Below are positions 8,035 through 55,665 of a stretch of DNA of 64,000 nt, one piece after another. Origin of the DNA: Meghimatium bilineatum (taxonomy: Eukaryota; Mollusca; Gastropoda; Stylommatophora; Philomycidae); NCBI GenBank assembly GCA_034231615.1, contig CM067304.1, positions 21,076,589 to 21,140,588 on the forward strand. Direction: 5' to 3'. Within the stretch, counting starts at the first letter, position 1, and the number at the start of each line of letters is the position of its first letter. The notes under the pieces were generated by a model that did not search any database, was not told the origin of the DNA, and worked only from the letters and a program-made list of their open reading frames with translations. The translations under genes were made by a program, and so were the position numbers.

Positions 8035-8084
8035 TTTCTTTAGGAGTCCTTCTTTCCAGACCTTATCAAATGCTTTCCTGAGGT

Positions 8085-9077
8085 CTATCCATGCTGCAAG
8101 TACCAGTTTCTTTTCTTGGAAGGCATCCTCAATTTCTTGGGAGAGGTAAGTTGCCTGATCTTCAGTAGAGTAGCACTGTCTGAAACCTGCTTTCTGTGAT
8201 ACCAGAAGTTTTCACTTTCAAGGTACCACTGCATCCTAAGATTGATAATAAGTTCCATTGTTTTACATAGACAGCTTGTGAGGCTGATGGGCCTGTAGTT
8301 GGAGACTGTGTTGCCATCTTTTCCTGATTTGAGGAGTGGTATCATTATTGCTTCTCTCTCGAAGTGAACGAAAGAAGAAGAAGAAGAAGAAATTATTGCT
8401 TCTCTCCACGCCTGTGGTACATTACCTGTGGACCAGCTTGTGTTAAAGATCTGCAGCAGCTTTGCTCTTGCTGCAATTCCCAGGTTTCTAATCATTTCAT
8501 TGGACACTCCATCAGCTCCAGGGGACTTTTTCATTTTCAATTTGGATATTGCATGCTCCAGTTCTCTCATTGTGATTGGTGCCTCCATGACTTCAGGTAT
8601 AGGTTCGCCTTGTCCAATGTTTTGCTGGTTCTCTCGAACTTCTTGTTGTTTGTCTGGGCTGACTTTGACGTTATTGTCTTCTGCAAAGGAATCTGCAAAG
8701 TAATCAGCTGCATGTTTACCTGTTAAAATGTTTCTATCTTTATAAAGTGTGATCCTGGTATTTCTCCCTGTACCTTCATCATTTAGTTGTTTTACAAGTT
8801 TCCATAATTTCCTAGTATCTCTTTCTAGGTTCAGCGACTGTTTTTTCTTTCCAGCTGCTCCGTCTGGCTTGTAACTTGGCTCTTTGAAATTTAGCCTTTG
8901 TTTGCTGATATTTGTTGTGATGTTCTTGGCTAGGTCTGTTCTCAGCCTGCTGTCTAGATGTTTCCATCTCATTTTGCAGCTTTTCCAGTTCATCATTCCA
9001 GTAGGGTTTGTAGCTTTTGCGTGTCCCCCTGGGTATGGTTTTACTAGCAGCATGTAGTATACATCTATTAAATTCAC
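8085..9077 (-). pseudogene. LINE-A reverse transcriptase, N-terminal half
   Basis: The minus-strand frame contains the post-endonuclease linker, LKMKKSPGADGVSNEMI and DGNTVSNYRPISLTSCLCK, the canonical finger motifs of non-LTR reverse transcriptases. The frame is disturbed at 8392-8359 by a 33-bp self-derived insertion that reads ISSSSSSFVHFE, and shifts again after the NLRMQWYLESEN segment. Confidence 0.85.
8359..8391 (+). mobile_element. 33-bp LINE-A 3'-end micro-insertion with 15-bp TSD
   Basis: The duplication ATTATTGCTTCTCTC occurs at 8344-8358 and 8392-8406. The 33 bases between are TCGAAGTGAACGAAAG plus a (GAA)n run, which is the 3' terminus of LINE-A itself (compare 6183-6204 on the minus strand). 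It reads as an extremely 5'-truncated retrotransposition of the same family into its own coding region, in opposite orientation. Confidence 0.85.
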
Positions 9078-9131
9078 TCACTGCTCTATTGATGTCTTTG
9101 TCCAAGTTCATGTCCTTAGCTAGAACACTGG

Positions 9132-10046
9132 TTAAATGATGGTACATTTTCCAGTCTGCCCTTTTATAGTTCCACCTAGTGAGCGTGCTGCTATCCTTGG
9201 TAAATTCATTGTGGATTTCCAGAAATACTGGTCTGTGGTCACTACCTCCAAGCTGCTTTCCAATGACACGTGTGATGTTCCATTCCAAGCCTGGTGAGTG
9301 GAATGCCAGGTCTGGTGTAGAGGTGGTGTGCCATACTCTCGAGTAGAAGGTTGGTGAGTCTGCTGGCTGGTTAATAAGGATGAGATTATTTTCATCCTGC
9401 CAGCTCTCAAGTTCCTCACCTCTCTTGTCGATATGATTGTAGCCCCAGCTCTGAAGTCACCAAACACCATACGTCTCTCTTTGTCTGGAATTGTGTCTAG
9501 TGCCAATGGTTTATCATTTGGGCAGTAGTAGTTCAGGAGATGGAATTCTGCACTGTCTGTTTTTAGGTGGAGCATCTGGTATTCTGCCCCTTCCATATAT
9601 ACTTCCAGCTGACATGCGCTGATATTGTTTTTAACAAGTGTCAGAATTCCACCCTTTCGCCTGTCCTTTCTGTCAGACCGGTAGCCTCTGATTTTGAAGG
9701 CTATGTCACTGCTGAGGTGTGTTTCTTGGATACAGCATATACTAACTTGTTCTTCACTGAGGACATTTTCAAGTTCCAATTTTTTGCTGTATCCATCTCT
9801 TTTACTGTTGACACCCTCAGCATTCCAGTGCATTATTTTTATTGGTCGTTTGTTTGTTTGGCCAGTAGCTCTATTCCCTTGCCTCCTGGCTCCTCGGGGC
9901 AATTGAGAAGGACTTCCAGTAACTGAGGTTGGGCCCTTTCGAGGTATAGGGCCCGGCACCGTCCCTGCCTGAACGTCCGCCACAGGGCAGGCACCATAAC
10001 TTTTTATAGATACAGACATGTTTCCATTGTGTTTTGTGCATGGCAT
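9132..10046 (-). pseudogene. LINE-A apurinic-like endonuclease domain
   Basis: The minus strand encodes IKIMHWNAEGVNSKRDG and VSICCIQETHLSSDIAFKIR (catalytic Glu), then RRKGGILTLVKNN and ERRMVFGDF. After GDF the frame shifts. The distal motif GGSDHRPVFLEIH, with the catalytic Asp/His pair, is in another frame at 9288-8812. The enzyme would nick target DNA to start reverse transcription. The start at 10046 is followed by a Pro-rich leader matched by the copy at 29.3 kb. Confidence 0.88.
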
Positions 10047-10364
10047 CCTGATTATCTGTGCGCCTTTTGGCTGGATGCCTCCGTCTTCAGCACTCTGCTT
10101 ACTGAGGCAGGACTATGGTCCTACTCGAGTGGGACTGCCCGACCAGTCTTAGTTTACAGCCCCTGATGGCTGAACTAAGCCCCCATCACCTCTGCACGGT
10201 GCTGGTCTCGATGGGGTACCTATAGATGAAAGTGATTTTGCTCAGTAAGACATACTTCTAAGCCCTCTCCAATGACTCCACCCATCACATATGTACTGCA
10301 CATTTGTCTTTGTCAGACAGACAAAATGATTTACTTTGCTTGACAATCATACAAAACTAGTTAC

Positions 10365-13937: not shown

Positions 13938-14874
13938 AGCAATCAATCAATAAACCCGTAACCCTTCAGGGATGTAGGGGTACCACATTTGATGCTTCAG
14001 CATACAGAGTCCTCCAGCGAATTCCATCCTCAGAGAAGCAGATGAGTGTGGCAATATCAATATCTTGTCCTGTCCATTCCTTGATGTTGTTTGTCCGTGC
14101 CTTTATTTGTACTCCTCTGCTTCTTCCACCCTTGACAGTTCCCTGCAGTATTGTTTTTGACAAGGAATCATGCTTGCATACATGTCCGAACCATGCTAAT
14201 TTTCGTCGTTTCGAAAAACAATGATTCCTGATTCTTACGTACACATTGGTTTTATGTTCCCTATAGGAAATTCGTAGAACTCTTCTGTAGCATTTGTACT
14301 CGAAAGCCTGTAATCTTCTCTCCATGTTCGCAGTGAGTGTCCAACTCACACAACCATACAGCACAACAGAAAGTACCAGCGACTTATACAGTTTGATTTT
14401 CACTCCAACACTGATGTTGCTTTTCCAAATCACCGTTAGCCTTGACAAGGACGCTAAAGCCATCTCCAGCCTTCTTTTTAGTTCTGCTTTGCATTTACCA
14501 TCGCTGCATATACTGGATCCGAGGTATTTGAAGATATTCATCACCAATTCAAGCTTATGTCCATTCATCATATTAGTCTAGTTTTCTGTGCCTCTGCTGT
14601 TAACCAAGATTGTGCTCTTATCTGTATTGATTTCCATTCCGTACTTGCTGGTAACTTTTTCCAACTTTGCTGTTAACTCTTGCAATGCTTGTTCTGACCC
14701 AGCTATAAGATCTAAACCATCAGCGAAACGCAAGTTGCAAATAGGGCGAACTCGATCGATATAGGCGTGTTGTAATATCTTTTTTATGATGTGCTCTAAG
14801 TATATTTTGAAAAGTACTGGGGACATTATGCATCCCTGTCGAACTTCCACATTTGTTTTGAAGAAAACCACATA
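13938..14874 (-). mobile_element. LINE-C (RTE-like) 5'-truncated copy
   Basis: The minus strand encodes the reverse transcriptase palm to C-terminus: [91 protein letters not shown] and NIKEWTGQDI. It ends in a (TTGA)n-type tail near 13940. The catalytic FADD reads FADG, one of several signs that it is dead. Other copies of the family lie at 45430 and 48648. The coding frame is split at about 14580. Confidence 0.85.
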
Positions 14875-14876
14875 CT

Positions 14877-14950
14877 GTGGACAGAGAACTGTGGAGAGCC
14901 ATGATCGCCCACGCCGGCCAGCATGGCACATGATGATGATTGATGAGTAA
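14877..14950 (+). mobile_element. LINE-D 3' terminus
   Basis: AGAGAACTGTGGAGAGCCAT and GATCGCCCACGCC..CATGGCACATGATGATGATT encode the [15 protein letters not shown] end of LINE-D, followed by a GAT-rich tail. It abuts the 5' truncation point of LINE-C. Confidence 0.6.
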
Positions 14951-15096
14951 TGTCGAGTTTGTGTTGGGGTGGGGTGGGTGGGTTTAGGGAAAGGAAATAT
15001 ACAAGAAGGATCAACATTTGAAAGCGCATGGAATGAATGTGGAACGAAATATAGACATAAACATATATATACATCCACACATACATATATATAGGC

Positions 15097-15100
<4 letters not shown>

Positions 15101-15191
<91 letters not shown>
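15101..15191. repeat. (AT)n microsatellite
   Basis: A pure AT dinucleotide run of about 90 bp. It gives spurious Tyr-Ile open frames on both strands that should not be annotated as proteins. Confidence 0.98.
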
Positions 15192-15194
<3 letters not shown>

Positions 15195-15496
15195 GTATAC
15201 ACACATCAAGAGTTTAGAAATAAATATATAACAAAATGGACACATAGATGCGTGAATGATGCCCATACAAAATGCGCAGGCATGTAAATGTTTCCACACA
15301 TAGGAAAGGGCTCACACCAGAATAGGCATACATATAGACACATAATGGAAATACGTGCATTAACATAAACAAGCACTCACATAAATATATATACATAAAT
15401 ATAAACATGATGTGTTAAAAATTATTCTTAGTTGATCCAAACACAAATTTAAGCGTTCACAGGGAACTGCTTGAACATCAAGTAATAATCAATAGG

Positions 15497-15498
<2 letters not shown>

Positions 15499-15585
<87 letters not shown>
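15499..15585. repeat. (AT)n microsatellite
   Basis: A second pure AT run of about 87 bp, some 310 bp after the first. The DNA between holds only short interrupted frames and AT-rich low-complexity sequence. Confidence 0.98.
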
Positions 15586-16830: not shown

Positions 16831-17560
16831 ACAGTTTTGCAGAGTATGTTGTGTTTTCTGGAGATTGTTCACTGGGGCTGTCAAAATATGTTTTTTAAAT
16901 AGTCTACAGGGGCACATTTTGGTGTCATCAATAGTCAAAAGGTCATATCAATCTTATGTCCATTTTTTGTAAATGGCCAAGGACACTGACTCCGGCTATT
17001 TGACTAGCAAAATAATCAGATTCTGGATTTATTGCTGACATCTCCCACTTTTGCTTGGTATTAATAACAAAGCTATTCCCCATTTAGAAATACCTGATTT
17101 CACTTTGACAAAAACTAGTCATGACTGGACATAGAATGATTTGTACACATTTTCGAACAAAACCAGTATCTAGTTGGAGTAGACATTTCCCAAAGTCGTT
17201 TTTGAGAAAAATACTTCTGTGCTAAGACATGGATTAAACCTAATGTAGAATCTAGATAATATAATTCATAACTATGTGATTCAGAAAAAAAGGATACTTC
17301 TAGCCAAATATCAAATTTAACTTTGTACAGGTAGGCCCATATTTCACATATGAATATTTTTTAAATATTTTCAAAGTAATGAATTGTGTTTGTTAGTATG
17401 GGGAGGGGGGGGGGGGAGATTTAAGTGTGCACTAAAAATATAGGCAATGTTTTGTGAACAAAGCGAATACCCACCTTTTTTCCTAGAAAAAAACTAGGTA
17501 TGTATTTAACTCATGCCCCCTCAAGATTCTATTATCACCATATGTTTTTACATATTTCAG

Positions 17561-17992
17561 ACACCAGAAAGTTCATTTATCTACCAATACTGCATACATT
17601 GCAAAAAAGCATGGCATATGGATCCTGTATCATCACAACAAGGTTCTGACTCATTGAATGTAAATATAGATCCTGACAAGAACTGTGATGTTATGAACAG
17701 TCATAAGAACTGCACACCTATCAGATCACCTTATTCTGACCAGGATAGTGTCAGTGGAAGAATATCTGCTGGAAATGGTTTCAGAAAACAGGGAGAGCAT
17801 ATGAATTCTGACTTTGAAGTGAATGATGATGTCATAAAGTCAAGATGTAGTCATGAGAATGCAAGCCATGTAATTGACTTTGAAGGGATTATGATTATCC
17901 AGGAGTTTGTTACAGAAGAGGAAGAAGATTTCTTGAACACTGCTATAACTAATTGTCAGTTTGTAAACTCCCAGTCAGGACGAAGGAAACAG
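17561..17992 (+). CDS. ALKBH4: ALKBH4 exon 2
   Basis: Acceptor ACATATTTCAG is followed by 144 codons in phase 0, then donor GTAACA. The exon encodes ESSFIYQYCIHCKKAWHMDP (compare KTYRFIYCSDTGWAVG in the human protein). A Ser/Asp/Asn-rich insert of about 80 residues follows, then VIDFEGIMIIQEFVTEEEED and VNSQSGRRKQ. FEG..II.EFVT.EEE and SQSGRRKQ are hallmark ALKBH4 sequences leading into the dioxygenase core. The poorly conserved insert makes the predicted protein 351 residues against about 300 in vertebrates. Splice sites at both ends look good, so I take the insert as real. Confidence 0.9.
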
Positions 17993-18659
17993 GTAACATT
18001 CTATTAATATTCATTTTATAAGTTGTTTCGATCGGCAGAAAAGTCTAATATCCACATTGTGCAATTATACTTTGAGAAGAAGTCTCCTATTTAGAGGGGA
18101 TAAATTCTAAGGGCTGTGTGGCTTTTCTACCTTTCCGCAACATTCAAAGTTGAAGTCATGAGGTTTAGTTCCCCTGTCAAGTATCTTTATCTGTTAGAGG
18201 TGCCCATAGCAATCCAGCTCTGGGCCATGGTCATTGGAATTATACCAGCTATGCAATCCCACCATCCAAGAGGGTTCTCTGTGCAGGGCTAATGTATTTG
18301 TCTGAATCTGAGCTCTGCAATGAAATTGTCACAGAGTTACTTTTCACCACACGTGCCACCTGTTCATAGCCGAGGCACCATGTACATGTTGGCAGCTAGC
18401 ATCATGGTCAGAGCTGGAGCTAATTTTGCCCCCCCCCCCCCTCACCACTATGTGTAATGCTGGGTTATCTGAATACTGCACCACAAAGGGAATAATAATT
18501 GTACAGGTGAAATGCTGAGGGGCTTCAAAAGAGGAAAACCTCACTATATTGGCATGTCATTTACTGAGAGTTTAATGTTTAGAGATGCATTTCACGTCTT
18601 TACATTATGCTCTTATTGCTGCTGTTTGTTGCCAGTACATGGTCTTGATGATTCTTAAA

Positions 18660-20295
18660 TCCTTACTATCAATGTTCAAATTCTCTAGCATTTATATAAC
18701 ATTCTCTTGATTCTTCTTCTTGATTAGAAACTGGCTTTAAAGTACGCAGGACATTCCCATAAGTGCTCCGGTCCAGCAGCCATCCCAGTGTATGTAGACA
18801 CAGAGTCCCGGTCAGGTGTTGATTGTGTGATCTTCGGGACTTTCCAAAAAATTTACTTTTCCTTCCCTCACATCTAGATACTCCCATTTCTAATATTCTC
18901 TGTATGTGTACGTTCTCAGCCTCATTGACATCATCTGCATCTTAAAATGAATTTATTACTGCTTTCATTAAGTCTACTTTATCTCTTCTCAGCAATGTGC
19001 CATCTATCACCATATTGCCTGCCAATAAGTCGGCTCTCTCGTTTCCTCTGACCCCAGCATGACCAGGGCAGTATATCCATGTAATGCTCTGGACAACTGA
19101 GTTGTTCAATAAGTCCCACTCTTTCGTTTCTTAGCATGCATTTTTCTATCTTGCACAACATGCTTTGAGAGTCTGTAAGTATTACTGAGTGTGTTGATGT
19201 ATCAGTTATCAACCAATTAAGAGCTGCTGTAACTCCCTCTATCTCCATCCTCATGCTCAATGTGACAGTAGAATATGCTGAAGATTTCTCAACCAACTTC
19301 ACGCCATTTCTGTAGGCAACAAAACCCCAACCACTTTTATTTGAGTTTATGTTAACATCTATGTATATATTTATGTCTTGTGGTTCCGAGTGTAGTCGGG
19401 CGAGTTCGTACACTGTATCCTGAGCCCTGACGTCCGTCCATTTCGACACGCTTTATCTAGTTGTATTATAACTTTAGTAAGTGATTTCTTTTCAGTGTCT
19501 ACCTCCACCCATTCACTGTCCTTTCCTATTTCTTCTAATTCACATACTCTTCGCAGTGTGTCTTCAGCCTCTGCTATCCATGATCTGCCACGCTTGATTC
19601 GTTTTCCCTTTGACTCATCTAGACATTGCTGTAATGGGTGGTGGTTGTATTCTGACACTGTAAGGTACGACCTGACCTGTGTTACCTAATGTCACACTCT
19701 AATGCTGGGGAGATCAAGCAGAAATCTCATAGCAGAGATGGGTGTATCTCTAGTACACCCCAGTACCGCTCTCTCTAGATTGTTGGAAGAGCAACTTATT
19801 CTCATTGCCTCATTTTGGACTTTTCCCAGTCTATCGACTTGTGTCTGTGACAAAGTTAGTAGGCAGAGGCCATAATCTATGACAGATAGCACCATCACTT
19901 GCAGAAGCAGAAAAAGTGTCCATTGCTGCATGTCGAAGGTCTTCATAACCTTGATAACACTGATCCCTTTTTTAGCCTTCTGTTTGTGACGTGTTCGTTG
20001 AATGAGAGACTTCTATCAAAGATTATCCTAAGATATTTAAGGTCCTTTTCTCTTTTAATGAATGAGCCCATGCAACTAACAGCCGGCAGTGTGTCATTGA
20101 CCAGATTATTATTTAAGGAGTACCAGACGAAATTTGCTTTCGAGAAATTGATCACAGCGTTGTATGTTCTGCACCACATCGACAATTGATCTAGTCCATT
20201 CTGTACACTGTCAGCGATATCTGTTCTGTTCCTGCCCATGTTGTATAGTAGGATATCATCAGCGTATGTTAGAACTCTACAATTGCTGGTAGTTT
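18660..20295 (-). mobile_element. LINE-B, Nimbus/I-like element, 5' truncated
   Basis: Minus-strand order: reverse transcriptase palm (RVLTYADDILLYNMGRNRTD), thumb (WCRTYNAVINFSKANFVWYS, DLKYLRIIFDRSLSFNEHVT, TRDTPISAMRFLLDLPS), RNase H (19449-18979: NIYIDVNINSNKSGWGFVAY, THSVILTDSQSML, WIYCPGHAGVRGNERADLL across shifts), then a Cys/His tail to about 18660. A second, more decayed copy of the last 700 bp is at 63240-64000. It sits in ALKBH4 intron 2 in antisense orientation. Confidence 0.85.
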
Positions 20296-20296
20296 G

Positions 20297-21220
20297 CAAT
20301 TGTATAACATCATTATGTTTAACTTTATCAAATGCTTTTATGTAGTCTATAAAACAGAGGAACAGATCTGTTTTTACCTCTATAGACCTCTCTATTAGTG
20401 TTCTAAAAATATGTATAGCATTGTTGGTACCTTTGCCTTCTACAAAACCACATTGTTCTGGACTTATTTCTGTTTTTATTTTGTTTCTCACTCTCTTCAT
20501 GATGATTCTGAGAAGTATTTTTGTTATTTAGCTCATAAGGCTGATTGTACAGTGTTCTTCACATTCGGTGGTCCCTGGTTTTTTTAGGTAAGGCTTTAAA
20601 TATGGATATCATTAAGTCATCGGGTATGTGTCCGCTATTATTATATATGTCATTCAGCAATTTTGTGATTACTTCAACTCCAAAGTCACCTAAAGCTACT
20701 AATTACTCTAATGTGATATTGTCTGGTCTTGGGGCTTTGTCATATTTCATGTGTCTAAAAACAATATTCAGAAAAATGAAAAATATATTGTGTAATATAA
20801 GCTTGTCATTAGAGATGAGGAAGAGAGTTCTGCAGTGCTATATGACCCCTATACTAACATATGGATGCAAGTCATGGACAAACAGGAAAGTAGAAAATTA
20901 GAGGAAATAGAGATGTGGTTCTACAGAAAAATGCTAAGAATGCCATGGACTACCAGAAAAAATAATGTGAAGGAGTTGAAAGAGTCAAATGTGAAATGGA
21001 CCTTAATCAATAATATAAGAAAAAGACAATCTTCATTTTTTGGCCACATGTTTGGAGAACACAGTCACAACAGGAAAGATTGATGGCAACAGAGAAAATA
21101 TTAGACAGTTTGACGGCATGGCAGGTAAACAATAACGATCTTGATACATAATGCTGGAGATAGAAAGCTGTGGAGAGCCATGATCGCCTACACCAGACGG
21201 CATGGCACCTGATGATGATG
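20297..21220. mobile_element. LINE-D copy with inverted 5' part (twin-priming structure)
   Basis: The left part (20297 to about 20770) is on the minus strand: KYDKAP.PDNITLE, VALGDFGVEVITKLLNDIYN, SPEQCGFVEGKGTNNAIHIF and FLCFIDYIKAFDKVKHND. The right part (about 20770-21220) is the downstream portion of the same kind of reverse transcriptase on the plus strand: MRKRVLQCYMTPILTYGCKS, RKLEEIEMWFYRKMLRMPWT and [15 protein letters not shown]-like end, then a GAT tail. An inverted upstream segment joined to a sense 3' segment is the classic product of twin priming. Confidence 0.75.
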
Positions 21221-23122: not shown

Positions 23123-23169
23123 AAAGTCATAACTAATAGGATTTTCTTTGTTTTTTTCCACTGTTTCAG

Positions 23170-23676
23170 GATTATGGACCAAAGGTAAATTTCAAGAAAC
23201 AAAAGCTGAGAACTGCAAACTTTACAGGTCTTCCATCCTATAGCCGTTTTATTTATGAGCGTATGAAAACTCACCCATATCTCTGTGACTTTGAGCCAGT
23301 CGAGCTGTGTAACCTGGAATATTGTCAGACACGAGGGGCTCACATTGATGCTCATTTTGATGATGATTGGTTATGGGGTGAGCGGTTAGTGACACTGAAT
23401 CTGATTTCAGATTCTAATTTAACCTTCACCTTAGATTCTGATCCAGGATTGGCTATTAAAGTTCCTCTCTTGCGACGATCATTGATCGTTGTGTCATCTG
23501 CTGCCAGGTACACATGGAAGCACAGTATTCTGCCAGAAGACATCATAGAACAGAGAATAGCAATGACTTTTAGAGAACTGTCAATGGAATTCACAACTGG
23601 TGGCATTAAAGAACACGAAGGAGGCGAGTTGTTAAAAATAGCGCTCTCATTCAAAGGAAATGTTGTCAACAGTTGA
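23170..23676 (+). CDS. ALKBH4: ALKBH4 exon 3 (catalytic domain)
   Basis: Acceptor CACTGTTTCAG is followed by 168 codons and TGA at 23674-23676. The exon holds the double-stranded beta-helix of the dioxygenase: DYGPKVNFKKQKLRT, FEPVELCNLEYCQTRGAHI, then the Fe-binding HxD in DAHFDDDWLWGERLV (His245, Asp247), the distal Fe-binding His in RYTWKHSI (His301), and the 2-oxoglutarate-binding Arg region QRIAMTFRELS (Arg312, Arg318). All catalytic residues are intact, and the end ELLKIALSFKG matches ELLRIALSFQG of the human protein. Total length is 351 residues. I see no AATAAA close behind the stop. Confidence 0.95.
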   Translation, partial: DYGPKVNFKKQKLRTANFTGLPSYSRFIYERMKTHPYLCDFEPVELCNLEYCQTRGAHIDAHFDDDWLWGERLVTLNLISDSNLTFTLDSDPGLAIKVPLLRRSLIVVSSAARYTWKHSILPEDIIEQRIAMTFRELSMEFTTGGIKEHEGGELLKIALSFKGNVVNS

Positions 23677-28625: not shown

Positions 28626-29494
28626 ATTGTATTGTCTATATATGTTATCCATGTTTACAAGAAGACCTATCGGTCCTTGTATAACTAATACGGATATTAT
28701 GTTATATGTTTGTTGTTACTGAGGATATTTCAATACCTGTACGGGATGTTTGTTGTTGTTGTAATAGTCCTTGTTTCGATCGGTCCGTTCTGGTGACTGT
28801 GCACGGTTTGAATGGCTTGATGAAATCGCATCTTTTTTTTGGAGATGCTGTTAGTCAAGTACGGAAGAACGCGTGTTCAATAGTTGCTAGGCGATTTGGT
28901 GCCATTGAACGGACTGGTTCAATTCCCGTTAGTTTCAAGAATTTAAAAAAAAAATTGTCCTCTGGCTTCCTACTTATATTTATTTGTATAAAGAAATTAT
29001 CCTACGAGAGGGGAACTCTACCTCAAAACCCCGGGCGGATGGTGCTCATTAACCCTGTTAGGCAAGCTTTCTAGGAGAAGGAAAACTCTAAAATTAAACC
29101 TCCACTGCCCTGTGGACAATCCTTGGATGGACAAGGGCTAGGGAAACACATCCTGACTCAAAAGTAAGATGGAGACACTGGACCGAAAGGTACAAAATAG
29201 TCCAGCCATGGCATGACTGCCAAGGCTGAAAACCACAGTGTCACGCAATGACTTCACATGTCAAATAAAAGGTTACAGATGATTCGTTTTGGTGCTTCAT
29301 CTGTGGAATCCCGTCAGGCGGATCAAGTGCCGGGCTCTAAGCCTCGAAGGAGCCCACCCTCAGCGACTGGTGGTACCTCTGTCTCAATTTGTGGAGCTAT
29401 TTCAGAGGATATCAGAGGAAAAAAACTACTGGTTCACAAAAATCACATATAGATCATGATGCAGACAAAGACAAAAATAAGCACTTAACAAATA

Positions 29495-30316
29495 TTGCAG
29501 TGGAATGCAGAGGGTGTGTACAATAAAAAGACTGCACTTGCAAACCGATTACACACAGAGGAAATCGACATAGCATTCATACAGGAAACACACCTCACAA
29601 ACAACAATAGATTCAACATCCGAGGATATCAAACATTAAGGAACGATAGAGAAAAGAGACATAAAGGAGGAGTTCTTATACTTGTGAAAAACAATATCTT
29701 TGCCTCTGAAATTCGAGTAGACACAGAAGAACAGTCTGAAATCATTGGAACCTGTCTAACCCTTCCAACTAAAGAGGTCACAGTATATAACTATTACTGT
29801 CCACAAGATAAGAGCCTATCGCCACACACAATTAACACAGAAAAAGATAACTGTCTTGTGATTGGTGACTTCAATAGCCACTCACAGAGTTGGGGATATA
29901 CAGAACAAGATACTAGAGGAGAAGAAGTGAAAGACTGGCAGTGCGAGGTGAAACTTCAACTGCTTAATGAACCTGAAGACCACCCAACTTTCTACTCTAG
30001 AAGATGGCACACCACCTCAACCCCTGACCTAGCCTTTGCAACAGATGCTTTAGCAAAAATAACGTACAGGGAAGTACTGGAGCAGCTTGGTGGAAGTGAC
30101 CATCGCCCCATCAAACTCACCATTGACATTAACCATACCCCTGCTGGCCCCACAACCACACCCAGATGGAACTTCAAGAAAGCAAACTGGAGTAAGTATG
30201 CTGACCTGACAGACAAACTCACAAAAACCTTAAATCCAAGGATTAAAAACATGAACAAAACTGCACAACTCCTGGCTTCTGCACTTCTCCAAGCAAACCA
30301 TACCAAGAGGTGCTAG
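29495..30316 (+). pseudogene. LINE-A copy 2 endonuclease
   Basis: A 273-codon frame with the full AP-endonuclease motif series: LQWNAEGVYNKK (the first codons lie just upstream of the first ATG), DIAFIQETHLTNNN, RHKGGVLILVKNNIF, CLVIGDFNSHSQSWGY, DLAFATDA and QLGGSDHRPIKLT. It is better preserved than the copy at 10046. It ends by frameshift at HTKRC, after which the linker continues in another frame at 30323-30707. Confidence 0.9.
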
Positions 30317-31045
30317 GAAAAATTACAAACCGTACTGGTCTGACGAACTCAATGAGTTGGAGAAAGAAGTGTCAGAGGCCAGAGACACAGCAGAAAAAAG
30401 CCCATCCACAGAAAACAACATATCACTAAAAGCTGCTGTAGCCAAACTAAGAAAAACAACAATTACAAACACAAGGAAAGGCTGGCATGAAAAAACAGAA
30501 ATTTTAAACTTTGACAAAGAGGGAAGAAAACTATGGAAAATAACAAAAATGCTCAACAACGAAGATAACAAAACAGCACCAGTAGCTATAGAGAATGGCG
30601 GAGATGTGCTCACAGGAAAGAAGGCTGCAAATCACTTTATACAGCATTACCAAAGTACTGCCTGCCACAAAGTCGATGAAAATAAGAGAAGAGAAGTAAG
30701 AAAATAACTACGGAATATCGAAAAAGAGATCAGCAAAGATAAACAAGATGTCATGAATATTCCATTCACGATCAACGAACTAAATGAAGAACTAGCAGTA
30801 TTAAAACTTAGGAAATCACCTGGCCCAGATGATACCAAATGAACTGCTAATTCACATCGGACCATCAGCAAAAAAGAAATTAATAAAAATTTTTAACAAC
30901 TGTTGGGATAGAGGTGTGGAAAACCGCCATAATGATACCCATCCTCAAGAAAGGCAAGCCAAAAAATAAGGTGGACAGCTATCGCCCAATAAGTCTGACC
31001 AGCTGTGTTTGCAAACTAATGGAGTGCCTGGTAAACAAAAGAATG

Positions 31046-32721
31046 GATAAAAGATTTCCTCTGCTACCGCACTGCAAGAGTAAAAGTAGATGGTAAACTA
31101 AGCAAACATGTATTACTCTCCAACAAGGAGTACCTCAAGGAGGAGTGATCTCTCCTACCCTCTTCCTAGTATTCATTAATATGGGAGAGAAACTGTCACA
31201 TCATATTTCAAAGGCCCTTCATGCAGATGACTTTGCTGCCTGGAGTGCGGCAGGTAACCTATCCACTGCAAAAAACAATGCAGACTGCACTTGACACCTT
31301 AAGTGAATGGGCATCTGACTGGGGAGTCCAGATCAACCTCTCCAAAACTGTGACAACCATCTTCTAACTTTCAAACCACCAAGAAAAAGCAAATCTTAAA
31401 ATAAATGGAAGTGAGCTAGCTCATGTGGAGAACCCTACATATCTAGGGGTCACACTAGACAAGCGACTCACTTGGAAACCACACCTAATAACCACTGAGC
31501 AAAAAGCAACCAGGAGGCTATCCTTGATGAAGAAACTTGCAGGAACAAGCTGGGGAGCAAATGGAAATATTCTCAGAAAAGTCTACATGGGTACAGTCAG
31601 ACCGGTAGTAGAATATGGAACGACAGCCTGGGCATCAGCATCAAAAACAAATACTGATCGCCTATCTAAAGTACAAAATGCAGGACTTCGACTTATCTCT
31701 GGAGGGATGAAATCCACTCCAATCCATGCAATGGAAAAACATGCAAACATCCGCCCACTGGATGAAAGAAGAGAAGAAAGAGTGCTTCTTCAAAGGGAAA
31801 AAATTAAGAACATGCCAAACCATCCGATGCATGCACAAATTTCTAGATCAACCACAAGCAGGTTGAAGAGAACCAGCTTCTGTCACATCTCCAGATATCC
31901 ATGAACAACATAAAGAAATCCTCACAAACCTCCCAAATGAAATTGAAACACTAACAGACTTTGAAGAGCCAGGAAATAGTCTTCAGAATGTCTCCATAAT
32001 AACACAGGTTCCTGGAATAATTAATAAGGAATACCAAACTCCACCTCAACTAAAAGCATTGACACTGGAGATGATAGAAAAAAAATACAATCCCAAGGAT
32101 TGGACACATGTCTACACAGATGGATCGGCAGAAGGAGCAGTAAGGAATGGAGGAGGTGGAATTTTTATAAGACTCAAAGATGGGAAGACAATATCAAAAG
32201 CTTTTCCAATTTCATAATAACTTCTCTAATTACTTCTCTAATTTTAGAGCAGAAGCAGTTGCACTCCATCAAGCACTGAAAGCCTTCACCGAACCAGGAC
32301 TGCCAAGACCAAAGAAGATAGTCATATTCACAGATTGCAGATCCCTAAAAACAATAATCCGCAACACATACACAGCAAAGTGGAAGAAAGAAATGGAAGG
32401 GGAATACGAACATGATGCAATACATCTCCTCCAAAAATATCAACAGACCACAATATTTCGCCTTAGAACAGGCCACTGCAGACTGTTGGGTCACCTTTAT
32501 CGATTAAGGATCTCATACACAGATGAATGTCCATGTGGATCTGGAACCCAGACTCCGGAACACATACTTCAGGACTGTCCAACATACAAAGAGCAGAGAC
32601 AGCAGACCTGGCCAGAGGATACCGACTTGAGGCAAAAGCTATGGGGCAGCCGCTCTGACCTGGAGAAGACAGTGGACGTCTTGACGATAGGCCTGATGGT
32701 ATAGCATGACCACAGAAGAAG
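31046..32721 (+). mobile_element. Nested 5'-truncated LINE-A-like element with 13-bp TSD
   Basis: The duplication AAACAAAAGAATG is at 31033-31045 and 32722-32734. The insert starts within a reverse transcriptase (CKSKSRW, QQGVPQGGVISPTLFLVFIN, LHADDFAAW). It continues with the thumb (NPTYLGVTLDKRLTWKPHLI, GTSWGANGNILRKVYMGTVR), RNase H (WTHVYTDGSAEGAVRNGGGG, NFRAEAVALHQAL, KKIVIFTDCRSL) and a Cys tail (DECPCGSGTQTPEHILQDC), and ends CCACAGAAGAAG. It interrupts the host element exactly between the NKRM codons and MWFLEKN. Confidence 0.88.
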
Positions 32722-32731
32722 AAACAAAAGA

Positions 32732-33169
32732 ATGATGTGGTTCCTAGAAAAAAATAAAATCCTGCTAAATCAGCAAGCTGGCTTCAGAAAGTGTAGATCA
32801 ACTGAAGACCAGATTACACTAATTGCCCAGGAAGTAGAGGATGCTTTCCAGGAAAAAAAGCAGACATCAGTGGTGTGGGTAGATATGGAAAAAGCCTTTG
32901 ATTGTGTATGGAAAGATGGACTCCTCCTTAAACTACAACAAAACAAAGTGACAGGGCGCATGTATTACTGGATAAAAAACTACCTGCACAACCGAAAAGC
33001 AGCAGTGAAGCTTGAAATGAAGCACAGCAGAAAGAAACTCTTTAAGCATGGAGTACCACAGGGAGATGTTCAATCCCACACTCTATTCCTTATATTCATG
33101 AATGACATTGACCAAATTCTCTCGCGTAAAGTAAATGCTGCAATGTATGCAGACGATCTGGTGCAGTGA
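32732..33169 (+). pseudogene. LINE-A copy 2 reverse transcriptase palm
   Basis: Encodes LLNQQAGFRKCRSTEDQITL, VVWVDMEKAFDCVWKDGLL, KHGVPQGDVQSHTLFLIFMN and NAAMYADDLVQ followed by a stop. The catalytic Asp of DMEKAFD and both Asp of YADD are intact here, unlike copy 1. The thumb continues out of frame to about 33850. Confidence 0.85.
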
Positions 33170-38370: not shown

Positions 38371-38376
38371 GACGTG
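38371..38376 (+). other. Left 6-bp target-site duplication GACGTG of the 6-kb element
   Basis: GACGTG immediately precedes AGTAGTTATATACGC. The same six bases follow the other terminus at 44362-44367. Confidence 0.9.
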
Positions 38377-38408
38377 AGTAGTTATATACGCATGAATGGG
38401 GCCGTTTT

Positions 38409-38898
38409 GCGCACCAATGCGCAACATTTAGATGGCTCAAAGAAGAAAGTATTGTTGCGCTGCACACCAATGCGCAACATTTAGATGGCTCAAAGAAGAA
38501 AGTATTGTTGCGCACCAATGCGCAACATTTAGATGGCTCAAAGAAGAAAGTATTGTTGCGCACCAATGCGCAACATTTAGATGGCTCAAAGAAGAAAGTA
38601 TTGTTGCGCACCAATGCGCAACATTTAGATGGCTCAAAGAAGAAAGTATTGTTGCGCACCAATGCGCAACATTTAGATGGCTCAAAGAAGAAAGTATTGT
38701 TGCGCACCAATGCGCAACATTTAGATGGCTCAAAGAAGAAAGTATTGTTGCGCTGCGCACCAATGCGCAACATTTAGATGGCTCAAAGAAGAAAGTATTG
38801 TTGCGCACCAATGCGCAACATTTAGATGGCTCAAAGAAGAAAGTATTGTTGCGCACCAATGCGCAACATTTAGATGGTTCAAAGAAGAAAGTATTGGT
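38409..38898. repeat. Left iteron array: 10 copies of a 48-bp unit
   Basis: The unit is GCGCACCAATGCGCAACATT / TAGATGGCTCAAAGAAGAAA / GTATTGTT. Each junction forms the palindrome TTGCGCA-CCAA-TGCGCAA (7-bp arms, 4-base loop). Copies are almost identical, and two carry a short GCTGC/GCTGCA interruption. Because 48 is divisible by three, the array gives long open frames on both strands (ATFRWLKEESIVAHQC repeated). I do not consider these real proteins. Confidence 0.95.
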
Positions 38899-38929
38899 GT
38901 GCTGCTCAGCAACACACCCGATTGTCGAA

Positions 38930-39070
38930 TCAGCCAGTAGGATGGTCGAAGGCGGCGCGAGATACCCCACCCGGGCCCGATCGGTACCCCCACCGTTGGT
39001 GGGGGTCCGGGCGCGCGGATCACGGGGGAGGTGGGGCGGGACCCACACGCTGGGGTATTTTTCCGCTGAA
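38930..39070. other. GC-rich block with stem-loop in the 6-kb element
   Basis: Sharply GC-rich compared with the rest of the element. It includes the perfect 9-bp hairpin ACCCCCACC-GTT-GGTGGGGGT at 38986-39006. Being subterminal and beside the iterons, it could be a protein-binding or replication site, but nothing in the sequence proves this. Confidence 0.55.
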
Positions 39071-39099
39071 AATTTTCCACTGCGCTATTTAGCTATGGT

Positions 39100-41970
39100 T
39101 TAAACCGGTCAAAGAACTAGTATTGGTACTGCTATTATGTGTGAAGTATGTGTTAGAGAATTAAAATGTGTGTGTGTATGGTGGGTGTCTGAAACTCCCC
39201 ATTTTTCTCTGTGTTGGTGTGTTGAATAAAAAAATAATTTTCCGCTGGCTTATCTCCCACCCTTTCCCCTCGTGTGTCGGTTCTTAACATGAAATGACTT
39301 TATCTGTTTAGTGGTCATACGGTTTTCCACTGAAACTTTTCCAGTGTTTTTAGGTACAAGGTGATACATCAAGGTCAATATCAGTGAACTTTGTAACAAT
39401 TTTTTTAACCTGTGATTCACCTTTAGACTGATAATCCAAGATAAAGAAAATGACACATACATCAGCTGACCTTGTGTCGACCTCAACATTCTAATTATGA
39501 AACTTTTCCACACCAGTTATTTTGTCTCGTTCAGATTAGTGGACTATCGCACCCACATTTAAACCAGGCTTTGTATTGGTTTATTTATAAAACATGCGTG
39601 TGTGGTGTCTAATGAATGGGCGTGAAATGGTGTTTCCATATAAATTAAACCAAGAAACAAGAAAGTTAACGCGGGCAACGAAATATATGAAAAACCTGGT
39701 TTAAATATATGTGTATGTAGCAATCTTTATATAAATACACATTGAAAATAAAACTAACAAATCTATTTAACTAAAGCCGGTAACATAACGAAGGACTAGG
39801 GCAGGTAATCTGAACAGCTGCAAATCATTAAAGTCCGCTGTATCTCAATTTAGTACGTGGTCAGTGCCTGGAAGCACAGTGGGTTGTAATTAATCAGATT
39901 ACGGAAAGCCTGGTTCGCTCAGAAACTGGTGTGCGCGGTTCGTTTCTTTAAACCGAAAGTTAAGATTATTCTCTCTTCTCTCTCTCTCGCTCTACATATG
40001 TGGTACTTTATAAGCAGAGAAAGATTTTGGCTACTAACACAATCTGTTGTATTTAGACAATTATTTTTAAAATAAAGCATATTATCAGTAATATTATAAA
40101 CTATTATTATATACAAATAATGGTATGTATAAGCACGCGTATTTCGATGTGTCATATAGACATCACAAAACGTGTTTTATAAATAAACACACACAATGCG
40201 TGTTTATTGTGTGGCATCGATGACACAAAATCAGAAGGGGAAAAATAAAAGTGTTCTTCCGCTGTTTGTAAACTTAACTGTACAGGGGTTCACGCACCTT
40301 AATAAATGCGAGTGGCTTTTATTTTGTTTGGTGTCGAATAAAATAACGATAATTAAAATAAGTGTTTAGCTTTAATGTGTTAAACAGTCCCTTTTTGGTT
40401 TTGTAGTAGCAGAAGTCGGCTGTTCCACAACGACTGATAGGAGATAATATTTAACATTTACGGTCGATGTTGGTCATACCAGAAAGGCACCTAAGGGTTA
40501 ACAACAACGTACCAATTGACCTGTAAATGTACTGAAACATCTGAAACATGTTTCTAACCGGTGAAACAACAACATTTCACAACATTATTCTTGGGTAGTT
40601 GGATCAAGCGTTTAATCCTCGCTGCGTTTATAGACAACAGCAGACACATACACACACAACTCACATTCTTATTTCGCCACCATTTTATCGGATGAGTAGC
40701 AAGCATATTTGTATCCTAATAGTTTCTATAACAATTCTAGCATTACCAGATGGGACTTATCTTACTCGGCTTGGGAACAAAATACCATCTGTAGATTCTT
40801 CAGGTGTCATATTTTGCATTTCTGTAATTATTCGCTTGTTTGATTATTCCCTTCAATTCAGTTTGCTTTCAGACCAATAGTATCAGCTAATGTACAGTTT
40901 TCTTTTGTTGTTTTAAGTATATGTTAACCGCATATATTCTTACATTCTGACTGTAGTTACATAACCATTAATAGTCGTGTCAGCTATTTATGTTGCTGAC
41001 ATTCATGATTTCTATTAAATTGTGCATTTGCTGTTACTCTATGCCACTTGAGCATTTTAAATTTTCTTTTTTGACACCAACATTTTCAGCTAGCGGTACG
41101 TTACAGGAGTAACTGCAGTTCCAACGCACAGTCCCTTGTGGGCGTAACTAAAGTTTTAACTCACAGCACTCTACAGGTGTAACTACGTGTTTAACCACCA
41201 GTGGCTTACAGAATCAAATGTTTTTATCATAATTTTTTTATTTGGTGGTTTTGGATGGTGATAATTGTAAAAGTGATATTATGCATAGCGGGGTTAGTGG
41301 ATTAAGGTTTTGTTGTCACCTTTGTCTACCATTGTTGTAACTCCTTTTTACATTTTATATTTCAATATGTGGCAATTTGAGCAAATTTTTGTAGCGTAAA
41401 TAGTCATAGCACGCCAGTTGTGTTCCGTGTGGGCTGACTGAAGCTTGTTTGTGGGTGTTGATAACTTGTACAGCCTCTGTACTTGTAGCTTGATGTTGAC
41501 ACATGGGCGTTATATACATAAGTAGAAACATAACCAGGATGTGGGATACATCTCTAGGGTACAGAAATACCTCCAGGTGGTTGTATACATTTCATAATTT
41601 CATGGGTTGTATTAGCTTTTGTCCTATTAGTAAGGAAGGTCCGACCCGGTCTTCTTATTACTAACAACATAAAACATTCGGGTCTGTGAAAAAGAGACAA
41701 AATATTACATACTAAAAAAGAAAACTCGGTTGGTTGTCGTGGTGTGACATCATCGGAATCGGGTAAGGGGCAACTGGTGAAAATAAGGGAATATACTAAT
41801 ATTGTCATATTAATGCGTATCTTATATAATCAATAAGTTTTATGTTAATAAACCCAACTAACACAAGTTAACTGACACACCTGATTATATACATAACACA
41901 ACATTTAGTACAACATAGAGACAAACTATAATTACAACGAAGATAATAAAAATCATATTTATTTACACAG
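39100..41970. other. Interior of the 6-kb element, weakly coding
   Basis: AT-rich DNA without a convincing gene. A plus-strand frame from ATG 40692 begins MSSKHICILIVSITILALPDG, which looks like a signal peptide, and stays open to 40880. A possible donor (CAG/GTGTCA) lies at about 40802. It could be the first exon of a small secreted protein or chance. Imperfect repeats of a GTAACTnnnGTTTTAACnCACAG type lie at 41105-41210. Confidence 0.35.
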
Positions 41971-41973
41971 CCA

Positions 41974-43229
41974 TTAATCTAAAAAATTTGGGTGTGCCGG
42001 TGATTGATACACCCCCACATCACAACACAAACAACGTTCTTCCCGTGTCACCAACCACTCAGTATGCCATACAGTTCGGCGCCGCACTCGCTCACGGAAA
42101 TAGCGCCGTATAGCCGGCTGGATCAACAATATTAAGTCTTCGTGGGTCACGTCCGTGATGAGAACCGATCCAAGCTGGTGGTCTATAACCTCATCGGCTG
42201 GCATTAAACAGGAGTGTGCCAATTGATTCGGCTGCTCCTCAAGGCAACCACGGCAGTGTCGTGTCCTATCATCAAACAAGGACAACCACACCCCTTCAAG
42301 GACTGAGCGGGCTGATCGGGTCTGTAATAGAAACAATAAAACATGATATAGAAAACAAGATTTTTTTTTTTCAATCTCTGTGTTCTTCTGGCCAGCTTAC
42401 CTAACCATACAAGATAATATATTGATACATATTAATAAATCAACCATTAACATTACATGACAGTAGGCCAAAAATCAACGACCAAACCTGAAATATATTT
42501 CATTATTATTATTTTTCCAACCACCGAGTTCTGTTGTCTTGTTGACCTGACCATACACAAATTATATATTGAAGTATATTAACACAACAGGCAAAAGACC
42601 AAAATACGATGTCGAAACCTAAAGATAAATTTTATGTTTATTTTTTCAAACCCCTTCAAGGACTGAGCGGGCTGCTCGGGTCTGTAATAGAAACAATAAA
42701 ACATGATATAGAAAACATGATATTTTTTTCAATCTCTGTGTTCTTCTGGCCAGCTTACCTAACCATACAAGATAATATATTGATACATATTAATAAATCA
42801 ACCATTAACATTACATGACAGTAGGCCAAAAATCAATGACCAAACCTGAAATATATTTCATTATTATTATTTTTTCCAACCGCCGAGTTCTGTTGTCTTG
42901 TTGACCTTACCATACACAAATTATATATTGATGTATATTAACACAACAGGCAAAAGACCAAAATACGATGTCGAAACCTAAAGATAAATTTTATGTTTAT
43001 TTTTCAAGCTCTGTGTTCTTCTGTCCATCTTACCTGACCATACAAAATGATATATTGATATATATTAATAAATCAACCATTAACATTACATTACAGCAGG
43101 CCAAAAAATCAACGACAAAACCTAAAATATATTTCATTATTATTTTTTTCAAGTGATCATACACAAATTATATATTGATACACATTATCACAACAGACAA
43201 AAAGACTTACATTTGTGTTGGTGGCCATT
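41974..43229 (-). CDS. Small spliced gene of the 6-kb element; Cys/His-rich protein
   Basis: Exon 1 (43229-43212) is ATG plus five codons (MATNTN) with a perfect GTAAGT donor. Exon 2 (42321-41974) follows acceptor TTTCTATTACAG in phase 0 and runs 115 codons to TAA, giving a 121-residue product. It contains RTRHCRGCLEEQPNQLAHSC, a C-x2-C-x9-H-x-C arrangement that could bind zinc. A basic patch (RRYFRERVRRR) and a second Cys cluster (ERCLCCDVGVY) follow. A TATA box lies about 85 bp before the ATG. The intron contains about 360-bp repeats. I do not recognise the family. It may be a DNA-binding or regulatory protein of the element. Confidence 0.6.
42285..43200. repeat. Two and a half tandem copies of a roughly 360-bp unit
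   Basis: CCCCTTCAAGGACTGAGCGG begins copies at 42290 and 42651. Both contain ACATGATATAGAAAACA, CAATCTCTGTGTTCTTCTGG and TCGAAACCTAAAGATAAATT in order. A third partial copy starts near 43005. Each full copy includes the splice acceptor and first codons of exon 2 of the small gene, so the duplication has copied an exon start. Confidence 0.9.
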
Positions 43230-43312
43230 GCGTGTAAATGGGAAATGTCAGTATTGTTTGGTGTCCGTTTGGTTAAGTTGTATGAATGGTATGGTTTAAT
43301 GTTATAGTTGGC

Positions 43313-43319
43313 TTTTATA
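43313..43319 (-). promoter_or_regulatory. TATA box of the element's spliced gene
   Basis: On the minus strand CCTTATAAAAGCC lies about 85 bp upstream of the ATG at 43229, a normal spacing for a core promoter with a short 5' UTR. Confidence 0.55.
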
Positions 43320-44183
43320 AGGGTGTGGATAAAGAGGCTATGAGCAGTGGAACCCCCACGTTATCGGACATACTTGACCGTGATTAATTATAAAACCAAG
43401 TGATACGATAGATACCTCTTAATGGGACTGGTAATGGTTTATGTAGTCGTACTAAGACACCTGATGTAAACTACAACTGAAATGGCACTGAACCAGGGGG
43501 TGTTGCTGGGTAAGTTTACGACCTATAGAAGCTTTCGTATGCACTTGCATTATAAAGCACTAACGGCCATGACGATACACAACCAGCATTTTAGAGATAA
43601 AGAGGACTAGGATACCGTTAACACCTGGGTGTTATCGTCTAGGCGGTGACCAAGACATATCGTAAACCGGAAACCCACGATAGCTATCGCACAGAGCGAT
43701 GGCTAATGATTTATTTGATCGTACTAAGGATAGTGGTATAAACTACGAAAAAACACTCTGAGACGAGCGCTGTACTATAGGTGCACATCTAGCGCACCAC
43801 GACTAGAGCCCACAGTTCTCAGTCCCAAAGGTCTCAACACAGAAAGATGAAGAACCCACTGAGAAAATGCCAGAGAAAGTCGAAGTGAGACCTAAGAACA
43901 CACTGATGATGCCTAAGACCCCACTACTTCAACATAGGCAGACATCTAAAAGAACAAAAAGTAAAACAAGGGACAAAAGTCTGATTTGGGATAAGTGGTA
44001 GAAAAAACTGTAGAAGGCAACGTACAATTACACAACAACTTGTCGCTTGTTTAAACTAATATGATACTAATATATTACATTAATAAACAAAATAAAATAA
44101 TAAAACCACAACGATGTTGTTGTATTTTATCTGTATTTATGTATTTGTGTGTGTGTGACTATATGTAAAAAAAAAAAGATTGC

Positions 44184-44331
44184 TCATTGGTGCGCAACAA
44201 TACTTTCTTCTTTGAGCCATCTAAATGTTGCGCAGCGCAACAATACTTTCTTCTTTGAGCCATCTAAATGTTGCGCAGCGCAACAATACTTTCTTCTTTG
44301 AGCCATCTAAATGTTGCGCATTGGTGCGCAA
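44184..44331. repeat. Right iteron array: 3 copies
   Basis: Three inverted copies of the left iteron. Two junctions lack the CCAAT of the 48-bp unit, giving a 43-bp spacing. The outermost copy has the full TTGCGCACCAATGCGCAA palindrome. Confidence 0.92.
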
Positions 44332-44361
44332 AACGGCCCCATTCATGCGTATATAACTACT

Positions 44362-44367
44362 GACGTG
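44362..44367 (+). other. Right 6-bp target-site duplication GACGTG
   Basis: GACGTG follows ..GTATATAACTACT and is then followed by CTGAGGATGTC of the host LINE. Confidence 0.9.
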
Positions 44368-45429
44368 CTGAGGATGTCATACAAAGCGTGTGCAGATTGC
44401 AAGATGTGGCAGTAGTTGCTGAATGGATAGGTCTACTCACGGATTTTGAAACTTGTTTGAGAGTAGTAATAACACTTAGCAGGGAATGCAGAGAATTGTG
44501 TCTCATGGCTGTGGAGCAAGAGGTGCAGGCTTTGGTCAGTGAGAATTTCAAAAAGGGGGATGTTATTATATACACTGATGGATCTGTGATTAGACATGTT
44601 CACAGTGCTTGGGCCTTCACAACTCATTGCACAGGTAAAACAATCAGGAAGGAAAGTAGGGCCTTTGCTGTGACTATGAGTAGCATGACCATGGAGATTA
44701 TGGCAGTGACCAGGGCATTTGAGTGGGTAGGCACACAGAAGGTAACACTTGGCTGCACACTATGTGACTCTATGAGTATGATTAGGAAGGTACAAGTGGG
44801 TCTAGTTTGCGAACAGTAGATTGAGACCTTGAGAAAGGCGAGGTTGAAAGTAGTTACATTTATTTTCATGCCAGGACAAGTGGATGGTTGAGGTAATGAA
44901 ATAGCAGATTAACGAACCAGGCAAAATTGTGGCACAGAGCAATGGGGCAATGGATCGAACTGAATATTTGAACTCCATAAGAGAGTGAGACTAGTGTGGA
45001 TGATGATTCTTTTTCAATGACCAGGATTAAAGAACAGGGTTTTAAATGCCATGGTACTAGAAGTGAATATTTTGGAAGGCGCAGAAGAATGATAGTCTAC
45101 CAGCAGAGGACCAGTACTTTCAGCAGAAGTGTAATGGCGGATACACTAAGAGAGAGAGATCGAAGCAACTATGGACATGCCTAGTTTGCAGTGATGATGA
45201 TCCAGTGACTAACTAACAACACAAATACATCCTGTTTGTATTTTCCTGATCATGCTCACTGAGTTGCTGAGAATGTAGATATGAGTTGCACTCTGTGTGT
45301 CCATCCAGTTCAAGGCCCTGGTCACCGCCATAATTTCCATTGTCATGCTACTTGTAGTTACAGAGAACACTTCTCTCTAATAGTCTTTTCTATACGCTGC
45401 GCTGGGAAATCTCATGAACTACACTACAA

Positions 45430-55340: not shown

Positions 55341-55369
55341 CCTTTGATTGCGAAAATGTGTGAGAGGGC

Positions 55370-55665
55370 CTTGTGGGAAAGTAAGTGAATATGTGAGGTG
55401 GCTTATGGGGAAATAAGTAAATATAAGAAATGACTTGTGAGTAAGTACAGACGTTTATGTTTAAGTAACTAAATATGTGATGTAGCTTATATATAAGTAA
55501 GTAAATATGTGAGGTGGTTTATGGGGAAGTAAATATGTGAGGTGGTTTATGGGGAAGTAAATATATGAATGTGGTGGCTTATTAGGAAGTCAGTAAATAT
55601 GCATAGCGCCTTATGGGAAAATAATTAAATATGTGAGGTGTCTTTTGGAAAGTAAATTTATCAAA
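55370..55665 (+). repeat. Degenerate minisatellite
   Basis: About eight imperfect copies of a 30-40-bp unit, GTAAATATGTGAGGTGGTTTATGGGGAA with variants. It lies in the intron between palmitoyltransferase exons 2 and 3. Confidence 0.8.

Follow-up and report, generated by a model that had tools for sequence, protein, structure and literature searches.

A 5,985-bp element at 38377-44361 of a 64,000-nucleotide window (the whole stretch of Meghimatium bilineatum DNA analysed here, placed at G000:C7:21076589-21140588) is, at a probability of about 0.8, a non-autonomous Polinton/Maverick and a satellite of Polintons in the same genome, with the palindromes among its relatives formed by fold-back replication using the enzymes of these helpers. 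The element is evidently recently moved selfish DNA that has no machinery of its own and uses that of a larger virus-like transposon. It has the termini, subterminal arrays and 6-bp target site duplication (TSD) of the Polintons, none of their genes as far as these were tested, and a gene of its own, p121, with a 121-aa product.

The first-pass annotation of this DNA had described perfect 87-bp terminal inverted repeats (TIRs) with GACGTG on both sides, iteron arrays at both ends, a TATA-driven spliced gene and no recognisable transposase, integrase or polymerase, and had proposed a non-autonomous or satellite element served in trans by a Polinton-type integrase. The coordinates of the termini and duplications were confirmed exactly, arrays were measured at both ends, and the TATA box, ATG, GTAAGT donor, acceptor and AATAAA of the gene were all located (Table 1). 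Additionally, none of 12 Polinton open reading frame (ORF) pieces matched inside the element, and exon 2 of p121 had no Pfam match at E 1 or less. A GC-rich block proposed as a hairpin was rejected: its folding z-score was −0.50 against dinucleotide shuffles, of which 57 of 200 folded as well. Rfam and tRNA searches found none, the element matched no phage record, and the DNA pattern of its array had 0 matches in IMG/VR.

The annotation had also suggested collecting other copies, looking for larger ones that encode the missing enzymes and tabulating their TSDs. Searching the 1.61-Gb assembly (32 contigs) with a 19-bp terminus, AGTAGTTATATASGSATGA (two degenerate positions), returned 110 forward and 105 reverse occurrences, 215 in all, versus 0 for the reversed control. 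TSDs were read for sixteen end pairs, with exact lengths of 3 to 12 considered; 11 pairs had an exact duplication, always of exactly 6 bp, and no other exact length occurred in that range. The termini begin with AG, as Polinton TIRs do; the TIR of the window element starts AGTAGT, and its ends are AG..CT. Moreover, larger copies with the same ends encode integrase and polymerase. The shared termini, subterminal arrays and 6-bp TSD, together with same-ended copies that carry an rve integrase, therefore point to the window copy being a non-autonomous Polinton, as had been proposed.

One autonomous helper, C1:126940773-126956147 (C1:126.9), was read in two separate pieces and measures 15,375 bp, with the TSD ATCGGT. 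By its ORF matches, it is predicted to encode a packaging-type ATPase (Adeno_IVa2, E 5e-5), a retroviral-type integrase (rve, 7e-15, with a chromodomain, 3e-7), an adenain-like protease (adenovirus endoprotease, Peptidase_C5, 4e-5) and a family-B polymerase. The polymerase ORF itself was not recognised by direct Pfam, PHROGs and PDB searches; this 945-aa ORF was assigned to family B because many of the 120 homologues among the matches listed (1913 in total) carry PF03175 DNA polymerase B. Among the matches listed, its closest named relatives were molluscan, from the land snail Bradybaena (60%), Pomacea (52%) and Littorina (48%), and metagenome relatives reached 60-61%. Two other ORFs would encode capsid protein by our own reading, with no library match for either, and neither piece had a match in the window element or in the C3 palindrome described below, of which 9.9 kb were covered. 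The 48-bp unit of the left array also lies inside both ends of C1:126.9. Since the window element has neither PolB nor rve while the same-ended C1:126.9 has both, it is a non-autonomous relative and not an autonomous Polinton. Across the genome, 72 of the 113 scored integrase matches were at 94% or more, besides a second group at 85-91%, and 92 of the 113 had stop-free frames; among 48 scored polymerase matches, 42 were stop-free.

Convergent pairs within 25 kb were built from 201 of the 215 ends, giving 92 pairs (the inner right end C9:28360392 was dropped), to which 94 of 133 p121 matches (weak fragments omitted) and all 113 scored integrase matches were added. Integrase was found in 27 pairs, p121 in 29, both in none and neither in 36 (Fisher one-sided p 3.5e-6), absences that are not exhaustive because 113 of 636 integrase candidates were scored. 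Polymerase, for which 37 of the 48 matches were used, was present in 18 of the 27 integrase pairs versus none of the 29 p121 pairs; at least one of the "neither" pairs, C21:55615531-55631112, has a polymerase match. Median lengths were 15.5 kb for integrase pairs, 13.1 kb for p121 pairs and 13.6 kb for those with neither. p121 occurred within 20 kb of an integrase in three cases, all outside the pairs: one at C15, with a spacing of 7.9 kb, and a further two at C16:32.4. The first, G000:C15:9205261-9213492, might be a helper with p121 in one element.

Some pairs showed further peculiarities. The right terminus occurs twice at G000:C9:28360392 and 28360643, 251 bp apart, and the outer one alone fits the TSD. 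The right ends C1:3684016 (L041) and C1:3950041 (L046), 266 kb apart, have 15 identical outer-flank bases, which point to a duplicated chromosome segment. The longest copies in the table are two neighbouring 19-kb integrase-bearing ones, G000:C12:28295861-28315483 and 28325535-28344854. Another integrase-bearing pair, G000:C23:68762123-68778616, contains two inverted integrases and is perhaps a palindromised helper.

Many of the p121 matches were arranged as inverted pairs. The gene occurs twice in 23 of the 29 p121-bearing paired elements, and the order is always minus then plus, that is, divergent. The copy C3:13594960-13608100, whose full length was covered in three separate pieces, is 13,141 bp long with the TSD CAAGTG; its arms are 99.6-99.8% identical, and a short asymmetric loop lies at the centre. 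Long copies with neither p121 nor integrase are also largely palindromic: their best inverted blocks measured 6.2 kb in C4 (99.4% identity), 4.1 kb in C25:97 (99.4%) and 3.6 kb in C8:56.25 (96.6%), whereas the same test gave only about 0.5 kb at the ends of the autonomous C1:126.9, and 1.2, 0.6 and 0.9 kb in the short copies C22, C20 and C1:3.68. Every long non-helper copy for which both arms were read (C3, C4, C25:97 and C8:56.25) is a giant palindrome, and the three short copies are not. The window copy, among the shorter members of its family, is one-armed; it would have retained a single arm and, from the other, the final arrays and the TIR. The single-gene elements (window, C1:3.68, C1:111.3, C14:16.5, C7:53 and C20:15.94) may have arisen by deletion of one arm or may be the progenitors from which palindromes form.

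An axis was located at 14 of 22 centres, of four kinds: A (2 loci), B (8), C (3) and D (1). Within the innermost ten consecutive pairs, the loops at these centres are 28-54 bases long. At the A axis, the window sequence 43855-43889 (CCCACT..AGTGAG) continues onward and represents the unfolded form. The centre of C7:45 equals this sequence and that of C3 is the same minus 3 bp, and both then revert to the complement of what preceded. The asymmetric loop at the fold-back site, a mark of snap-back or hairpin-replicating defective genomes, is present in relatives and not in the one-armed window copy. Of the six positions of CCCACT and AGTGAG, five pair; the mismatch therefore looks like a retained primer, and the C7:45 axis reads as a visible fold-back scar.

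The arms were compared by local alignment and on a 911-bp segment poor in repeats, because differences in the number of tandem-repeat units mislead a global alignment. On the 911-bp segment, arms differed by 0-0.33% at 10 of 11 loci, with a median difference of 2.68% between loci, and at 8 of the 11 the arms were nearer each other than any other locus. At the six B-type loci, which have one common axis, arms differed by 0-0.22% and loci by 0.93-4.18%. Because differences within loci were smaller than those between loci, arms with one axis have stayed alike while the elements diverged. Snap-back or hairpin replication would account for such concerted arms at once; independent fold-back recurring at one site is an alternative. 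It is also conceivable, but unlikely, that chromosomal gene conversion homogenised the arms, as in sex-chromosome palindromes. Near-identity of the arms at most loci suits conversion, but one axis bears the fold-back scar, and the decayed pair C20:51404124/51412442 has three stops versus none, as if inactive arms drift, although symmetry is undemonstrated at that pair, where no axis was found.

A genome search with p121 yielded 133 matches, the best 73 of which ran without interruption for 114 or more of the 121 residues. Of 30 copies fetched, 23 had exon 1 and the donor unaltered, the other 7 lacked the exact string within the 1.5 kb retrieved, and 29 kept the acceptor AG. In the window copy, a 358-bp duplication (42290-43004) includes a second acceptor and exon 2 start, a decoy exon that soon ends. 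The C-x2-C ... H-x-C motif was invariant in 15 of 15 aligned copies, and we read it as a putative zinc-binding motif. Among 19 distinct exons from the 30 best matches, mean nonsynonymous (dN) and synonymous (dS) divergences were 0.036 and 0.127, and dN/dS was 0.28 (codon bootstrap 0.16-0.52), a value that is only indicative because the sample is biased toward intact copies and the pairs are not independent. In a neutral simulation, all 19 exons stayed stop-free in 0 of 2000 runs, with sequences treated as independent and shared changes therefore overcounted. The gene looks to be under selection.

No p121 homologue outside this genome was found in 5.8 billion proteins, either with a single sequence or with a 15-row alignment. 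The alignment fitted 7 stretches in IMG/VR, none confirmed; PHROGs gave nothing useful, and PDB gave two weak rows only (E 0.06 and 0.49). AlphaFold on the window exon alone produced an unusable model (predicted local distance difference test 38), so no fold search was made. Very tentatively, the product may be a regulator that binds nucleic acid and targets the arrays or the helper.

A simpler account holds that these elements are plain deletion derivatives, p121 being a functionless passenger and the palindromes bringing no replication advantage. It agrees with other copies (C4, C8:56.25 and C1:3.68), which keep only fragments of helper genes. We consider it improbable: p121 has the low dN/dS and conserved splicing described above, and p121 elements are as numerous as integrase elements among paired ends (29 vs 27).

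The palindromes are very unlikely to be sequencing or assembly artefacts arising from fold-back chimeric reads. Long palindromes are a known artefact class and the evidence comes from an assembly rather than reads, but C3, C4, C25:97 and C8:56.25 each have an identical, exact 6-bp TSD on both sides with flanks that differ beyond it, and the centre loops are asymmetric and common to several loci.

Among known systems, Polinton/Maverick elements share the TIRs, 6-bp TSD and AG terminus, and the autonomous relatives in the same genome carry PolB, integrase, ATPase and protease; the window copy differs in having none of these genes as tested and in carrying p121, and 23 of 29 p121-bearing relatives have a mirrored gene pair. 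Kalilo of Neurospora is a protein-primed linear plasmid. Vierula and Bertrand in 1992, cited in PMC11071308, reportedly described, to judge by their title, a deletion derivative of it that forms hairpin and duplex DNA. That derivative belongs to a fungal mitochondrial plasmid, whereas the present elements are a genomic family that carries a conserved gene. Virophages and satellite viruses depend on a helper and can reside in host genomes; here, the two capsid-like helper ORF pieces revealed no capsid gene in the window element or in the 9.9 kb of C3 covered, and the helper is itself transposon-like and resident in this genome.

An independent cut-and-paste transposon of the IS3EU, GingerRoot, Dada or Foldback type that makes 6-bp duplications by chance is barely credible, for although the long internally repeated ends recall Foldback, the same termini bound copies with Polinton integrase and polymerase, which largely refutes it. 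According to the sources cited, the TSD is 6 bp in Polintons and usually also in IS3EU and GingerRoot, which have TA..TA ends, GingerRoot occasionally TG..CA (PMC10045372); Ginger1 and Ginger2 make 4- or 5-bp TSDs (PMC2836005, PMC10045372); and Galileo has long internally repetitive inverted repeats and a P-element-type transposase (PMC3573991). Membership in IS3EU or GingerRoot was rejected, as the ends here are AG..CT and neither TA..TA nor TG..CA, and membership in Ginger1 or Ginger2 was rejected, as the TSD here is 6 bp. The Foldback/Galileo group has similar long, internally repetitive inverted repeats but differs from this family, whose relatives have a retroviral-type integrase and PolB.

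Several observations weigh against a Polinton satellite propagated by fold-back replication. The case was built on assembled genome sequence. Five of the 16 end pairs have no exact TSD: it is shifted by 3 bp at C7:68, matches at 5 of 6 positions at C23:59.80, and is absent at C21:47, C20:15.94 and C1:3.68. Only one p121 palindrome (C3) was read whole, the others being represented by gene pairs, 3.3-kb arm pieces and centres. No axis was found by our score at 8 of 22 centres. Among these, C8:33 scored 85 against a threshold of 90; C16:24, C7:69 and C23:60 match the window at the centre, with C23:60 inverted at the A site and beyond the scanned range; and the centres of C8:64, C23:23, C20:51 and C24:69 do not match the window element. 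At 3 of 11 loci (C8:56.94, C8:33 and C8:60.8), the arms were not nearest each other: those of C8:56.94 were 9.9% apart on the 911-bp segment and 1.1% over 2.2 kb aligned locally, and C8:33 and C8:60.8 were as near each other as their own arms. Finally, the role of p121 is a guess, given that no homologue was found and the single-sequence fold failed.

Table 1. Features of the element, in window coordinates
Feature	Position	Strand	Remark
Target site duplication GACGTG	38371..38376 (left), 44362..44367 (right)	.	
Left TIR, 87 bp, perfect, begins AGTAGTTATATACGC	38377..38463	+	same terminus on integrase-bearing copies
Left subterminal array, 10.0 x 48 bp, 95% matches	38407..38896	+	palindromic TGTTGCGC..GCGCAACA core
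Stretch 93% identical to right end of autonomous C1:126.9 Polinton	38556..40147	.	
GC-rich block	38950..39060	.	folding no better than shuffles
p121 AATAAA poly(A) signal	41958..41963	-	just past stop
p121 coding exon 2 (115 aa + stop)	41974..42321	-	C-x2-C ... H-x-C motif; stop 41974-41976
p121 intron	42322..43210	-	358-bp tandem duplication repeating acceptor and exon start
p121 coding exon 1 (MATNTN, six codons)	43211..43228	-	ATG at 43228; GTAAGT donor follows
p121 TATA box	43313..43319	-	
Unfolded form of hairpin where A-type palindromes fold back	43855..43889	+	CCCACT..AGTGAG
Segment near centre of other copies	43971..44187	.	followed directly by right end in window copy
Right subterminal array, 3.0 x 43 bp, 100% matches	44192..44320	-	
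Right TIR	44275..44361	-	

In an empty-site test, the joined flanks matched on the left at 326-585 and on the right from 802, but no match spanned the junction, so that no pre-insertion target was recovered. An ORF resembling RNase H lies in the right flank (44388-44819), with a Pfam match (E 0.00019) that misses the cut-off. Elsewhere in the window, ORF reading suggested LINE-like fragments with endonuclease and reverse transcriptase at 7108-10112 (-), 29489-33169 (+), 13966-15213 (-) and 18979-20527 (-). Two exon-like open stretches on the plus strand, 17510-18007 and 23140-23676, resemble 2OG-Fe(II) oxygenase (the second PF13532, E 0.0019, below the cut-off) and may belong to ALKBH4. In addition, two long AT dinucleotide arrays lie 300 bp apart at 15100-15199 and 15499-15585, and a degenerate 28- to 32-bp tandem array (AAGTAAATATGTGAGG..) lies at 55354-55655.

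Under fold-back replication of a Polinton satellite, the helper integrase would insert the element DNA in trans, and the helper's protein-primed polymerase would start at the TIR, where the arrays would serve for recognition or regulation. The growing or displaced strand would fold back on a small internal hairpin and copy itself, producing a palindrome. The palindrome would then alternate with a one-armed hairpin form, so that both arms would be re-made from a single template every round. More speculatively, a packaging limit of the helper would suit the size of about 13-15 kb (medians of 13-14 kb, vs 15.5 kb for integrase-bearing pairs), and p121 would play a regulatory role. It is a doubtful extension that these elements form a new kind of animal subviral agent, namely hairpin satellites of Polinton viruses that would exist outside the chromosomes as self-complementary one-armed molecules, be copied through the hairpin into palindromes of about helper length, travel in helper capsids and use one gene to manage or tax the helper.

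Non-autonomous Polintons are not new in principle. In the literature searched, no listing described a lineage of palindromic satellites that has several axes, keeps its arms alike and carries a conserved gene. Palindromic Polintons were absent from the titles and abstract openings returned by a full-text literature search, with subscription papers and Repbase outside its reach, which is not proof of absence, and the search gave nothing usable on an adenovirus precedent for inverted duplication.

Polintons are thought to be endogenous viruses, and to our knowledge their replication in animals is known mainly from gene content. Here, many stop-free helper genes occur in one genome together with a corresponding set of dependent elements. 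The structure of the dependents preserves apparent replication errors: a fold-back scar, axes of four kinds and arms that have remained similar. With helper and dependent populations side by side in one genome, protein-primed strand-displacement replication of animal Polintons becomes testable from sequence. These findings suggest that a satellite carrying a conserved gene of its own exploits a transposon.

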